The notes beneath the pieces are model-generated. The model made no database searches and was not told where the DNA came from. It saw only the letters and a list, made by a program, of their open reading frames with translations. This document shows positions 102 through 5,476 of a DNA stretch of 5,476 nt, one piece after another. The number at the start of each line of letters is the position of its first letter. Position 1 is the first letter of the stretch. Both the position numbers and the translations under genes were made by a program. The DNA is from Candidatus Bathyarchaeota archaeon (GTDB lineage: Archaea; Thermoproteota; Bathyarchaeia; Bathyarchaeales; UBA233), in the NCBI GenBank assembly GCA_004376975.1, contig SOJA01000054.1:1-5476 (forward strand), in the 5' to 3' direction.

Positions 102-1214
102 CTATTTATCCCATGCAATAATCTTCTTCTTACTCATATGAAGAATCAACGAATAAAAAAGAATAAACTGATCCATAATCCCTTGAATAACATAATTTCT
201 AACAGTAGGAATCAAGCTCAATACACAGAAACCCAGGATGAGAGGGATCACAACAACTGGATACCAAACCATCAACAAAAAGGTCACACACGTAAGAACA
301 ACAAAAATAATTGGATTGAATATTAACAGAAACATTTCCGGTATAGCTATCCTCTTAGGCAACAACAAACGATCTTTCAAGAGAAGCCACAAGCATTGAA
401 GCCATAGCCCAGTCAAATGAAAAGCCCGCCTTGTCTTTGCCCTTGTTCTAGCTTTAAGACTGCTAGAAACTTCTGAAAACGCAAACACTTCTGGAACAAG
501 AATCGCCCTAAACCCTTTTTGAACAACTCTCAAAGCGGTCCCAGAATCGTCTGCTCCAGAATCACTATCAAATTCATCAAAAGCACTCCGTTTAAAGGCA
601 CAAAAACAACCTTCAAACCTAATCGTCGAATGTATCTTTGACTCACCCAGCCTTAACAAAAGCATTAAACTTAGATATCCTTCTTCAGCCCTTCCCACCC
701 AAGACTCTCCAAAATCTTCAGAGGTCCCCCACCCAGTTATCGCTCCCACCGTCGGATCAGACATATATGGCAACGCCTTACGAAGTGTATCAGGTGGCCA
801 AACAGAATCTGCATCAGTCACGACAACAATATTATTCGACGAAATCTCAAGGCCCTTATTCAAAGCATTTGCCTTCCCTATCCTATGCTGTTGCTTCAAA
901 ATCTTTATTGGCAGTTCTGGATGTTTCCCAGCGAAATCATAGGCTCTTGCCAATGTTTGATCTGTTGATGCATCATCCACCAGAATGACTTCTAGTTTAT
1001 CTTTAGGGTAAGAAACTTCCGTTAGATTTCTTAACTTTGTTTGGATCATCCTTTCTTCGTTACGAGCAGGAACAAGAATGGTTACGTGTGGACAAAACTG
1101 CGAATCCACATTCAATCCCCAACTTTTGCTTACATGAAGCTTGAGATAGACAAAGTACGTGGCGTAGCTTCCAGCAAAGACGCCAAAAAGCACAAGCCAC
1201 AAGAAAATAATCAA
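102..1214 (-). CDS. Membrane-anchored family 2 glycosyltransferase (processive type)
   Basis: This 370-residue protein should transfer a sugar from a nucleotide donor at the cytoplasmic face of the membrane. It opens with one membrane helix (about residues 3-25), then a GT-A catalytic domain: VPARNEE at 48-54, VDDAS at 79-83 for nucleotide binding, KANALNKGL at 114-122, and TDADS at 133-137, whose D-x-D should hold the metal and donor phosphates. GADD at 220-223 sits where the acceptor-activating acid is expected. RRAFH at 262-266 stands where processive enzymes have Q/R-x-x-R-W, so the final Trp is missing. Hydrophobic segments follow at about 290-335 and 345-360. This layout resembles cellulose or hyaluronan synthase-like and N-glycosyltransferase GT2 proteins. 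The start is a TTG at 1214, supported by GGGTGA five to six bases upstream within the end of the aminotransferase gene, with six bases between the genes. The family is clear; the sugar, the acceptor and processivity are not. Confidence 0.9.
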   Translation of the reverse strand: MIIFLWLVLFGVFAGSYATYFVYLKLHVSKSWGLNVDSQFCPHVTILVPARNEERMIQTKLRNLTEVSYPKDKLEVILVDDASTDQTLARAYDFAGKHPELPIKILKQQHRIGKANALNKGLEISSNNIVVVTDADSVWPPDTLRKALPYMSDPTVGAITGWGTSEDFGESWVGRAEEGYLSLMLLLRLGESKIHSTIRFEGCFCAFKRSAFDEFDSDSGADDSGTALRVVQKGFRAILVPEVFAFSEVSSSLKARTRAKTRRAFHLTGLWLQCLWLLLKDRLLLPKRIAIPEMFLLIFNPIIFVVLTCVTFLLMVWYPVVVIPLILGFCVLSLIPTVRNYVIQGIMDQFILFYSLILHMSKKKIIAWDK

Positions 1215-2340: not shown

Positions 2341-2910
2341 CTACGGATTAGCCCTTTTGAGCCAAGCTTCTCTCCAAAAACAGAAACAAGACCTATCACA
2401 ACCCCCATGCGCTTCACCATCACATAGGACCCCATCCAACAAAACCGTTGGAGTTCTTATTCTTCTCAGCTCTCCGGTTGCTTCTAAAATTATCTTCTCA
2501 AGCCTCCTATAAACTCTAAATCGTTTCCCACAGAACTGCACCATCTCAGGAGTAAAGCGCAAACCCCTCAGCTTACCCTGCGCATTCAGCGTAGCAAAGA
2601 TCTCCTTCACTGAACGCACCTCAACCCACTCTCCAAGCTGCAAATTCAAAGCCTCACCAACTTGGCTTCTACTAGACACTCTACCAAGCTTTTTCCTTCG
2701 TTTGTTAACATGTTTACCCAACTTTGTTGACGGAAATATTCTTGACACAAAACCACCTAGCCCAAGAACACTAATGTACCAAACGTACCTCTTGAGCGTC
2801 CAAAAATACCTACGAAGAGGTAAAGCTAAACGGGGATCCGATAACGTAGCCCTCACCATATCGGCATAATAATATTGACAAGCCTCTTTACTATCTTTCA
2901 TAGCCTTCAC
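2341..2910 (-). CDS. Conserved protein of unknown function with Cys-rich C-terminal block
   Basis: This protein has 189 residues and no assigned function. The N-terminal third is basic and aromatic (RRYFWTLKRYVWYISVLGLGG at about 33-53), with a weakly hydrophobic stretch that could touch a membrane or pack as a helix. The C-terminal half has LGEWVEVRS at 92-100, PEMVQFCGKRFRVYRR at 121-136, and a cysteine-rich end around LCDGEAHGGC at 162-171, followed by C175, C177 and WREAWLKR at 179-186. C127, C163, C171 and C175 or C177 with H168 could bind zinc or another metal. From memory, the 'EWVEVRS ... FCG+RF+VY+R ... CDG..HGGC...C..FW+EAWLKR' pattern recurs in unnamed proteins of bacterial polysaccharide and natural-product clusters; I could not verify this. 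The GTG start at 2910 overlaps the BshC-like stop. An ATG at 2901, with GTGA five bases upstream, is an equally good start and removes three residues. The overlap implies coupled translation and a shared task with the BshC-like protein. Confidence 0.85.
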   Translation of the reverse strand: MKAMKDSKEACQYYYADMVRATLSDPRLALPLRRYFWTLKRYVWYISVLGLGGFVSRIFPSTKLGKHVNKRRKKLGRVSSRSQVGEALNLQLGEWVEVRSVKEIFATLNAQGKLRGLRFTPEMVQFCGKRFRVYRRLEKIILEATGELRRIRTPTVLLDGVLCDGEAHGGCDRSCFCFWREAWLKRANP

Positions 2911-4658
2911 TGATCACGATGTGCCCACACATAACTCTCGGTAACTGGTATTAGATCGTCAAAACTGGTTTTCAGACACACATCAGACAGCAAGCTTCCA
3001 TTCTCCCTCAGGAACGCTGTCCACTGTTCACTTGTCGATTTTAAACCAATGTTCACCGCATAATCCACCATACATGGATAGAGAAGCATTACTGAACGAA
3101 CATTCTCCATCATTCTCCAATTTCTCATGAGCACAGAATAATCTGACTGGTTCCTTATCCTAGACTGGGCAATCGAAAGGGCTTTCACCTTAACATACTT
3201 CTCCTCTTTTTCCATTTCATCATCTTCCATTACAGACTGCTTTTGAAGTTCGAGTTCCTTAATGCGCTGCTCAACCTCCAAAATCTCCTTCTTGAATTGG
3301 CCAACAACCTCTGAATACTTAGAAAGGTCACATGTTCCAGAGAATTTTTTGAAGTTCAGAAACGCTTCTAACTGACCTATTCCAAGATAGACATCTCTAG
3401 GACGCCATATCACAACAAGTGGAAACCCTATGCCCAAATGCTCAGCCACATACTTTGCCTGCTTAAGATAAGCCTTCCCTCCAACCCCACCCACATAACA
3501 GCACACATTGAGACCGGGAAAAAAGGTAGTAGGCATAGAAATACTCCGCATCGACATCTTAGACATTATTCCAGAAAAATCAGGCTCCCCATCCGAATAA
3601 AAATCAATCTGATACTCTTGCCCACAACGCAAACACTGTCCACGACCAACAATAGATCCATTCCGCTCTTCAGCCATCAACCTTGCTTTACTTCCACAGT
3701 CACAAAGATACCAAAATGGTATGATTCGATACTCTTGCCTGCTCACGCCTCCCTCATGAGAAGCTGTTGCCTCTCTAACATAATTAGAGTACTCTTTGAA
3801 ATGAGAAAGTAAAAACCAGAACTTATCTTCAAAAATTTGTTGACACTCGGAAAACCTTGAAAAAACCGTATCATATCCCCAAACTCCATTCACAACCTTT
3901 GACATGATAAAAGCATTAAAGTCTGAATAAGACCTTGCTTTCTCGTAGGCATCTTCAACGATCCCCCAGAAATCCTTGAAATCCTCGTCTAGGCTGTAAT
4001 TGTTCAGAGCGAATTCTATCCCAAAAGACATACAGAACCTTTCAATCGACTTGATCTTCCTATTGTACCAGTTTTCAATCTTCTCTTGCCAACCATTTAA
4101 AACTTGTTTTGAAGGCTTTTGCACGCAGTTTAACAATAGTCTATCAGTTAAGCCTACACGGAGTTCGAGCACACCGTTTCTTCTCTCCACAGCAGGAAGA
4201 AGTGCTGACTTTACCCATCGATCATCAGTGAAATCCTGATCTGCAATCCCAAAAAAACTAACAACAGGTAGATTCAACTTTTCCGCGAGTCGTTCTGCAA
4301 GAACATGGTTCAACGTTACTTTCCGAAGCACCCCACCATAGGCAAAGAGATTTGGTTGATGGGCAGTCATAAGGAGCAAGCAAGAATCGTCATGAAGTCT
4401 CTCAAGAGCTTCTTTAACTCTCAGAGACAGCGTTCCACATTCCTGATGAAATTTTCGAGCCCAACTGGATAAATGCACTCGTTTCTCACGAGTCTTAACA
4501 TCTGTTGTTTCTCTAAGTGAACCCCAGTAATAACTCGCGCATGCCTCGACTAAGTCGTCCATGTTCTTAAACGAGAAAGGCTGACCTAACCTGGCATCCA
4601 ATCTACCTGAACCCATCATCTGTAATCCTACAATACAACGATTAAACTTCATAGGCAC
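2907..4658 (-). CDS. BshC-like protein with inserted zinc-ribbon-like motif (putative amino-acid ligase)
   Basis: This 583-residue protein resembles BshC, the cytoplasmic enzyme proposed to join cysteine to glucosaminyl-malate in bacillithiol synthesis. TAHQPNLFAYGG at 98-109 corresponds to the BshC 'TGQQ.GLF.GP' loop of its Rossmann core. PVVSFFGIADQDF at 131-143 corresponds to the 'PVFWIA.EDHDF' strand and active-site motif. NVCCYVGGVGGKAYLKQ at 384-400 matches the late 'aYVgGPgE.aY..q' block, followed by HLGIGFPLVVIWRP. A heptad-like charged helix at about 455-500 fits the BshC coiled coil. Unlike the BshC proteins I know, it carries C319-x-C321 and C342-x2-C345, a zinc-ribbon spacing, just before the late core block, and it is longer than the roughly 540 residues of Bacillus BshC. 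The acidic residue of 'GPGE' appears replaced. The GTG start at 4658 follows the deacetylase by five bases; ATG 4652 is an alternative. Family membership is well supported; the amino acid and acceptor are unknown, so no gene symbol is given. Confidence 0.85.
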   Translation of the reverse strand: MPMKFNRCIVGLQMMGSGRLDARLGQPFSFKNMDDLVEACASYYWGSLRETTDVKTREKRVHLSSWARKFHQECGTLSLRVKEALERLHDDSCLLLMTAHQPNLFAYGGVLRKVTLNHVLAERLAEKLNLPVVSFFGIADQDFTDDRWVKSALLPAVERRNGVLELRVGLTDRLLLNCVQKPSKQVLNGWQEKIENWYNRKIKSIERFCMSFGIEFALNNYSLDEDFKDFWGIVEDAYEKARSYSDFNAFIMSKVVNGVWGYDTVFSRFSECQQIFEDKFWFLLSHFKEYSNYVREATASHEGGVSRQEYRIIPFWYLCDCGSKARLMAEERNGSIVGRGQCLRCGQEYQIDFYSDGEPDFSGIMSKMSMRSISMPTTFFPGLNVCCYVGGVGGKAYLKQAKYVAEHLGIGFPLVVIWRPRDVYLGIGQLEAFLNFKKFSGTCDLSKYSEVVGQFKKEILEVEQRIKELELQKQSVMEDDEMEKEEKYVKVKALSIAQSRIRNQSDYSVLMRNWRMMENVRSVMLLYPCMVDYAVNIGLKSTSEQWTAFLRENGSLLSDVCLKTSFDDLIPVTESYVWAHRDQ

Positions 4659-4663
4659 CTATT

Positions 4664-5314
4664 CTAAATCTCTAGGAGAAACTTGCCAACCTCGAAAGCC
4701 TCAGCGAGTAATGCACCAGCCTGAAAGCCTCTGTATCTTGCGAGACCTTCAACAGCGTTTGACACATATGGAAGCTGATGCACACTTGCATCATGGCGGT
4801 CATTGCCTCTAAAATAAACCTTTTCAGCTTGCGAGCCAAACATTTCCAACGCCTTCAATTTAACATCAAAGGCTGAACATACATCAACAAACACTTGGGG
4901 ACAGAACTCTCTCAAAGCCGCTGGAGACTCGTACAAAAAGATTTTTTTGGAGTTCCTAGCCGCAGACAAAGATGCCATGCCAGCGTTTCTATGATCTTGG
5001 TGTCCATCTTTATAGCTATGCGCGAAAATGAGGTCGGGCTTGAGTTCATTTATGACATTCTCAATTGCCATAATTGTTTCAATCCCGTCAGTAATTCTCG
5101 TATCTTGGAGATCTCCGAACAGCAACTTCTTAGCACCCAATATCTTTGCGGCTTCCTCGCATTCTTTTTCTCTAGCTTTTGGATCGCCAGAGGCTTCACC
5201 TTTCGTCAACACAAGCATGTAAACCTCGTGTCCTTTTCTGTTATATAATACAAGAGTTCCTCCGCAGCCTATCTCAATGTCGTCAGGGTGTGCTCCTATA
5301 GCCAAGATTCTCAT
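4664..5314 (-). CDS. PIG-L/LmbE-family zinc N-deacetylase, BshB-like
   Basis: This 216-residue enzyme should remove an acetyl group from an N-acetylated amino sugar, as BshB does for GlcNAc-malate, MshB for GlcNAc-inositol and PIG-L for GlcNAc-phosphatidylinositol. AHPDDIEIGCGG at 8-19 contains the zinc ligands H9 and D12 and the catalytic base D11. HSYKDGHQDHRNAG at 99-112 contains the HxDH motif, whose H108 is the third zinc ligand. The end, RYRGFQAGALLAEAF at 193-207, matches the conserved 'rG...G..yAEaF' tail of BshB-type members. Length is normal for a soluble enzyme; there is no signal peptide or membrane helix, so it acts in the cytoplasm. The ATG at 5314 is preceded by GTGATCC three bases upstream. 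The gene starts 10 bases after the preceding aminotransferase end and stops five bases before the BshC-like gene. That pairing with a BshC relative strengthens the BshB-like reading, but the true substrate is unproven. Confidence 0.93.
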   Translation of the reverse strand: MRILAIGAHPDDIEIGCGGTLVLYNRKGHEVYMLVLTKGEASGDPKAREKECEEAAKILGAKKLLFGDLQDTRITDGIETIMAIENVINELKPDLIFAHSYKDGHQDHRNAGMASLSAARNSKKIFLYESPAALREFCPQVFVDVCSAFDVKLKALEMFGSQAEKVYFRGNDRHDASVHQLPYVSNAVEGLARYRGFQAGALLAEAFEVGKFLLEI

Positions 5315-5324: not shown

Positions 5325-5476
5325 TCAACTCTGTTCAGTTAAAACCTTCTTTAAACTATCAATAACGTATTCAACTTCTTTTTTCTGCATTCGTACATAC
5401 ATAGGAAGACACACAGCCCTACTCAAAGTCTTTGAGAGTTAGAACTTCAACCGCCACCTTTGCCTTCTCAGCCATC
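5325..5476 (-). pseudogene. 3' end of a second DegT-family aminotransferase, apparently frameshifted
   Basis: The last roughly 50 codons of an aminotransferase are visible, but in two frames. The downstream part reads SRAVCLPMYVRMQKKEVEYV and ends at KKVLTEQS with TGA at 5325-5327. It matches the DegT C-terminal pattern '...SLPMYP.L...EVEYVI..I' and parallels the intact copy in this window (ALSIPLYPGLSEVEIEYLL). That frame is closed upstream by TAA at 5439-5441. The upstream part in the neighbouring frame reads MAEKAKVAVEVLTL, also aminotransferase-like, and is closed by TAG at 5419-5421. A shift of one base between about 5422 and 5438 would join the two. It may be a true inactivating mutation or a sequencing or assembly error; the window edge prevents a decision. 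If intact it would make the amino sugar on which the downstream enzymes act. Confidence 0.6.

Follow-up and report, generated by a model that had tools for sequence, protein, structure and literature searches.

We describe a gene pair in a 5476-base stretch of DNA from a Candidatus Bathyarchaeota archaeon (contig SOJA01000054.1; the whole stretch is called the window below): a PIG-L deacetylase gene followed by a gene for a BshC-like ligase, which together we read, with moderate confidence, as an archaeal amino-sugar re-acylation module of surface-glycan synthesis. N-deacetylation of amino sugars is the established activity of PIG-L enzymes, and BshC or MshC attaches cysteine to the amine so exposed. 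In the proposed scheme, the PIG-L protein would take the N-acetyl group off an amino sugar that is bound to a nucleotide, a lipid or a glycan. The BshC-like enzyme would then form an amide between the exposed amine and a carboxylate, for which an amino acid is the likeliest candidate; a neighbouring DegT aminotransferase would supply another sugar amine, and a GT2 glycosyltransferase would build the modified residue into the glycan. This role appears the most likely because the pair keeps both folds and the PIG-L metal motifs and lies, without BshA, among sugar-modifying genes. What the analysis shows is the gene pairing, the folds, the lack of BshA over cut-off in nine relatives, the glycan neighbourhood and a block-wise similarity to WbqC; deacetylation in vivo, amide ligation, the identity of sugar and acyl group, and the fate of the product are what we infer. 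If the reading is true, glycan decoration also draws on the deacetylate-then-amidate module of protective thiols. No account of such a pair was found in the open-licence literature, most subscription papers lying outside that scope.

The deacetylase and the BshC-like protein

The first-pass annotation of the window, made from its letters alone, had reported BshB-like and BshC-like genes five bases apart; the coordinates (Table 1) and all the motifs that it named hold, and PF02585 and PF10079 both score over cut-off. The deacetylase carries AHPDD near the N-terminus, GHQDH (HQDH), and AEAF near the C-terminus. It scores 99.1 bits with PF02585 (cut-off 28.2), which places it in the PIG-L/LmbE superfamily, and 125.3 bits with TIGR04001, under the 182.5 of the BshB1 equivalog and so outside it. 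Its best PDB sequence match is 2ixd (E 1.5e-19).

The BshC-like open reading frame (ORF) contains TAHQPNLFAYGG, FFGIADQDF and YVGGVGGKAY. It reaches 31.8 bits with PF10079 (gathering cut-off 27) and 27.8 bits with TIGR03998, whose cut-off of 265.8 leaves it outside the BshC equivalog. The five-base gap takes the first GTG as start codon; aligned relatives begin near residue 14-15 or later and the structure model has low certainty for residues 1-24, so that translation may in fact begin at an ATG some 40 bases downstream. Of the positions in the window family, 51 are conserved in 66 or more of 67 sequences, and many of these fall in the stretches with HQPN, GG-GG-Y and the zinc ribbon. They include HQPN (100-103), D140/D142, R371, G391/G394/Y397 and cysteines 319, 321, 342 and 345, the last four being predicted zinc ligands. 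As for the likeness to BshC that the initial reading assumed, the model of the 583-residue protein has the BshC fold over its whole length, and with it the catalytic fold that class I aminoacyl-tRNA synthetases use to activate amino acids.

Recurrence of the pair

A survey across genomes, the check proposed with the first-pass annotation, finds the pair repeatedly. In all five window-type loci (the window; L001 and L002 of Bathyarchaeota; L003 of Methanomethylicus; L022 from G282), PIG-L lies directly upstream of the BshC-like gene, overlapping it or at most five bases away when first start codons are taken, and the two also go together in most loci of a second archaeal family (below). Equal contig size among the best 120 matches per protein served as a proxy for shared contigs. 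By this measure, 26 contigs (at least 3 kb) of exactly equal size are common to the PIG-L and BshC-like lists, where 120 offset controls averaged 0.225 and never exceeded 2, so the two genes occur together much more often than chance would give. A 189-residue protein encoded beside the pair shares 10 equal-size contigs with the BshC-like family against 0.28 expected; among the five window-type loci it is present in the window and L003 only. One PIG-L match is named Helarchaeota (P0329), with a contig size equal to that of the BshC-like match P0009. The scanned neighbours of window-type loci include GT2, DegT, Gfo/Idh, an asparagine-synthase-like protein (in L001), GNAT and methyltransferase. 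The BshC-like gene is patchy, occurring in 3 of the 162 genomes of the window's order, and among viral contigs no relative was confirmed.

BshA and candidate bacillithiol loci

BshA (TIGR03999, cut-off 273.7 bits) is over cut-off in none of the nine genomes with a window-type BshC (G001, G002, G003, G282, G454, G574, G547, G526 and G446). All nine hold weaker GT4 matches below that cut-off; the absence counts for less in G003 because this genome is 0.7 Mb, and completeness figures are not given for the nine. Of 250 genomes of the class, 28 have a BshA over cut-off; for TIGR03998 the figure is 0 of 200 genomes of the phylum, a sample different from the 250. The earlier remark that no BshA is visible stands for the window, where a Pfam domain scan of the ORFs found no GT4, and carries over to its nine relatives.

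The BshA-linked loci of other Bathyarchaeia carry BshC proteins different from the window type. Among the 28 BshA genomes, 17 lie in a range of 393-419 bits. A zinc-ribbon BshC (profile A2) stands no more than about 650 bases from bshA in 15 of these; the other two, G287 and G278, have none near it. A2 matches at E<=1e-50 occur in 18 genomes; in the three without BshA over cut-off (G252, G256, G262) the match lies at a contig edge. Loci L023-L029 (e.g. L025:7167-12970) have bshA near the zinc-ribbon BshC and mostly also PIG-L, Amidohydro_2-like and DinB/MST-like ORFs. Pfam identifies Amidohydro_2 and two DinB/MST-like proteins in L025, with similar ORFs in other loci; the Amidohydro_2-like amidohydrolase may be a new pathway member. 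The remaining 11 BshA genomes score 453-483 bits, and in eight of these an ORF of 500-607 residues, a PIG-L-like ORF (by eye) and bshA stand in succession. Six ORFs in the bshC position were aligned, and the single one searched against the PDB, that of L086, matches 4wbd at E 7.8e-57. With contiguous ORFs in the bshC, PIG-L and bshA positions and BshA over cut-off in 8/8, L086-L093 (e.g. L086:6332-9668) are candidates for an archaeal bacillithiol pathway.

Earlier reports describe no archaea with a full bacillithiol pathway (PMC12719100) and give archaea 39 InterPro matches each for BshA and BshC, mostly Asgard, with no bacillithiol detected (PMC7278568). Presence or absence of BshA tells archaea that may make bacillithiol apart from archaea with a BshC relative only. 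The public record P0044 labels a member of the window family 'bacillithiol biosynthesis BshC', and so would credit an archaeon with a thiol that it possibly does not make.

Relation to known families

Canonical BshC (4wbd; TIGR03998/PF10079) has a GQQP motif where the window protein has HQPN. The six aligned canonical-like archaeal BshC proteins also have GQQP and lack the CxC...CxxC of the window family. The window-family profile (A3), used as a hidden Markov model, retrieves 4wbd at E 1.9e-5, in an alignment limited to positions 38-129. A direct profile link to the canonical-like archaeal BshC was weak and query-dependent (probability 3.5, E 0.013; probability 74.8, E 2.6e-5) and was set aside; in profile-profile comparison the connection runs through A2. 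The zinc-ribbon BshC of A2 is the closest family (hhalign probability 99.3, E 3.3e-20), in an alignment that spans 334 columns and includes the zinc ribbon. Unlike the window family, it adjoins bshA, has GQQP and falls on a separate side of the tree at 100/99.

In this unrooted tree of 37 BshC-like proteins, the window family (12 rows) lies on one side of a branch with support 98/99, and the second archaeal family (14 rows) at 100/99. A branch with 100/99 sets off the two jointly, while the BshA-linked types have 100/99 and 100/100. Resolution is lower in the PIG-L tree (29 rows): the window group has 87/93, and the PIG-L proteins of the second family do not form one group.

WbqC (PF08889) and the window family have two like blocks, HQPN then GG-GG-Y, in the same order. 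The top-scoring block depends on direction: with A3 as query it is HQPN (probability 70.9, E 3.8e-5; reverse 2.3e-4), and with WbqC as query it is GG-GG-Y (probability 80.3, E 1.4e-5; reverse 3e-4). Comparisons of A3 or WbqC with profiles of the 189-residue family and of class I lysyl-tRNA synthetase (LysRS-I) gave E 0.10-0.86, and the WbqC profile did not match A2 (0.075, 0.05) or A4 (0.12, 0.53). The shared blocks suggest that WbqC belongs to the same superfamily as the window BshC-like family. WbqC proteins are about 220-260 residues long in the rows used (A7, drawn from loci L175-L187), without the zinc ribbon and long C-terminal helices of the window protein, for which the Pfam scan does not list PF08889 at E<=1 (cut-off 21.3); the window protein is thus not a WbqC member by that model. 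WbqC occurs in 9 of 200 phylum genomes. Its place in glycan synthesis comes from the database name and a remark in PMC7848895, rather than from a tested function. An association of WbqC with N-glycylated sugars found no confirmation in the open-licence literature.

Among synthetases, the best fold match of the window BshC-like model is LysRS-I (1irx; TIGR00467). LysRS-I has HIG and KxSxS motifs, of which none was seen by eye in the window protein, and TIGR00467 (cut-off 147.55 bits) is not listed for it at E<=1, which leaves it outside that model. MshC is also in the Foldseek list, at E 4.5e-3. In mycothiol synthesis, the deacetylase MshB acts before MshC, a ligase resembling class I synthetases, an arrangement like that of the window pair; MshC derives from cysteinyl-tRNA synthetase, whereas the best synthetase match of the window protein is LysRS-I.

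A second archaeal family

With profile A1, 9 of 398 phylum genomes gave a match at E<=1e-30; five were new and measured 2.7-3.4 Mb. The family of G574 probably consists of ammonia oxidisers (Nitrososphaeraceae-like), as judged from gene content among other things. We collected 26 loci from 25 of its 38 genomes with the BshC-like gene, read Pfam domains from L101, L102 and L103, and assigned the other loci by BLAST to those. PIG-L is on the same stretch in 22 of the 26 (BLAST E<=1e-15): in six loci it is less than 100 bases from the BshC-like ORF, in 14 it is about 1.1 kb off and an ATP-grasp match fills the interval, and in two the distance is 4.6 or 6.7 kb. The BshC-like protein of L101, the sole one scanned, has no Pfam match at E<=0.001.

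ATP-grasp matches are found in 25 of the 26 loci, which follow two layouts: (i) 19 loci have a PHP match and ATP-grasp; (ii) six have GT4, an epimerase-like ORF (by eye) and ATP-grasp. L151, the locus without ATP-grasp, fits neither. The GT4 lies near the pair in L100, L102, L138, L139, L150 and L156, with DUF3492 and GT4 domains read in L102 only. UDP-glucose dehydrogenase matches occur in six loci, and GT2 is also among the neighbours. Loci L101, L103-L105, L140-L149, L152-L155 and L157 share a conserved cluster of ATP-grasp, PHP and BshC-like genes, mostly with PIG-L. G574 has two BshC-like copies, one with ATP-grasp and PHP (L101) and one with GT4 and the epimerase-like ORF (L102).

Proposed role and alternatives

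The first-pass annotation had left two pathways side by side, a bacillithiol-like one on a different amino sugar and the aminoacylation of a glycan precursor; our results bear that annotation out in part, its glycan branch more so than its thiol branch. For the thiol, a low-molecular-weight compound made without BshA, another glycosyltransferase would make an amino-sugar glycoside, PIG-L would deacetylate it and the BshC-like enzyme would add cysteine. The profile match to the zinc-ribbon BshC beside BshA genes speaks for such a route, as does the GT4 near the pair in six of the 26 second-family loci, where above all a thiol from a different glycoside is possible. We nevertheless consider it unlikely, given 0/9 window-type genomes with BshA over cut-off vs 28/250 in the class, a DinB/MST-like cluster confined to BshA-type loci (0/5 window-type loci) and the patchy presence in the window's order. 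A quite improbable alternative is that ATP-grasp or asparagine-synthase-like ligases make the acyl group beforehand and the BshC-like protein, with no ATP activation of its own, transfers or edits it. This would account for the ATP-grasp matches of the second family, the asparagine-synthase-like protein of L001 and the lack of a KMSKS motif recognisable by eye; but the fold is that of amino-acid-activating synthetases, and no ATP-grasp is among the scanned window-type neighbours, a scan that covered part of the ORFs. We give very little credence to a non-catalytic BshC-like protein that stands beside PIG-L merely through shared glycan clusters: its similarity to any characterised enzyme is low, but the 51 kept positions and the PIG-L pairing across Bathyarchaeota, Methanomethylicus and the second family speak against this reading.

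Several points weigh against re-acylation in glycan synthesis. The BshC-like gene (A3, E<=1e-10, some fragments) is found in 38 of the 70 second-family genomes, a frequency that would suit a metabolic role, and four of the 26 loci there are without PIG-L, though on contigs of just 4.1-6.6 kb. With the window protein alone, the PDB sequence search ranks 4wbd (E 0.097) below an unrelated topoisomerase (E 0.074), and inspection by eye reveals no HIGH/KMSKS-type motifs. Sequence kinship with LysRS-I was tried and rejected: a 14-row profile gave E 0.13 (A3), 0.11 (A2) and 0.075 (A4), and the reverse comparisons, at 0.10, 0.25 and 0.22, were not significant either, so that it is the modelled fold that points to such a kinship. 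The open-licence literature yielded no description of WbqC's own function. Finally, the substrate, product and activity of the pair are all predictions.

More tentatively, the BshC-like protein might represent a further class I synthetase-derived sugar-amide ligase in archaea, beside MshC and canonical BshC, with WbqC-like HQPN and GG-GG-Y blocks, a LysRS-I-like zinc ribbon and a PIG-L partner. It would make an amino-sugar/amino-acid conjugate in Bathyarchaeia, Methanomethylicia and the probable ammonia oxidisers, where ATP-grasp would extend it. Were this so, BshC, WbqC and LysRS-I would fall in one lineage, and WbqC would be predicted to be an acyl ligase of amino sugars. Both links can be tested, the one from BshC to LysRS-I through the fold match and the one to WbqC through the two shared blocks.

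Neighbouring genes in the window

The five main ORFs of the window all run in one direction, on the minus strand (Table 1).

Table 1. Features of the window
Feature	Position	Strand	Evidence
Probable second DegT-like protein, C-terminal end, cut by window end	5340..5476	-	two frames
PIG-L (LmbE/BshB-like) amino-sugar N-deacetylase, 216 residues	4664..5314	-	PF02585, motifs
BshC-like ligase, HQPN motif and CxC...CxxC probable zinc ribbon, 583 residues	2907..4658	-	PF10079
189-residue protein, no assigned family	2341..2910	-	C-terminal CDGxAHGGCDRSCFxFWREAWL motif
DegT/DnrJ/EryC1 sugar aminotransferase, 361 residues	1221..2306	-	PF01041, 299.1 bits
GT2 glycosyltransferase, 370 residues, hydrophobic stretches by eye	102..1214	-	PF00535, 92.1 bits

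Of the sugar aminotransferases and GT2 glycosyltransferase first noted as neighbours, the GT2 and one DegT aminotransferase are confirmed, while the plural hangs on the truncated fragment at the window end, which we take to be DegT-like from the C-terminus typical of that family. Its split across two frames fits natural decay and sequencing error alike. The complete DegT protein scores 252 bits with the PseC model, below the cut-off of 423.5.

The 189-residue ORF, which the first-pass annotation had left unnamed, overlaps the end of the BshC-like gene by 4 bases and has no Pfam match over cut-off and no NCBIfam match. Its model (predicted local distance difference test score 72.6) has no PDB match at E<=0.001 in a structure search; a nitrile-hydratase-beta-like fold was considered on weak matches (best E 2.9e-3, TM about 0.3) and not used. 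The family counts 630 homologues, and the domain is doubled in P0122 and P0123. Among the matches listed, the nearest organism-named relatives are Bathyarchaeia for the BshC-like (P0044), 189-residue (P0125) and PIG-L (P0254) proteins alike.

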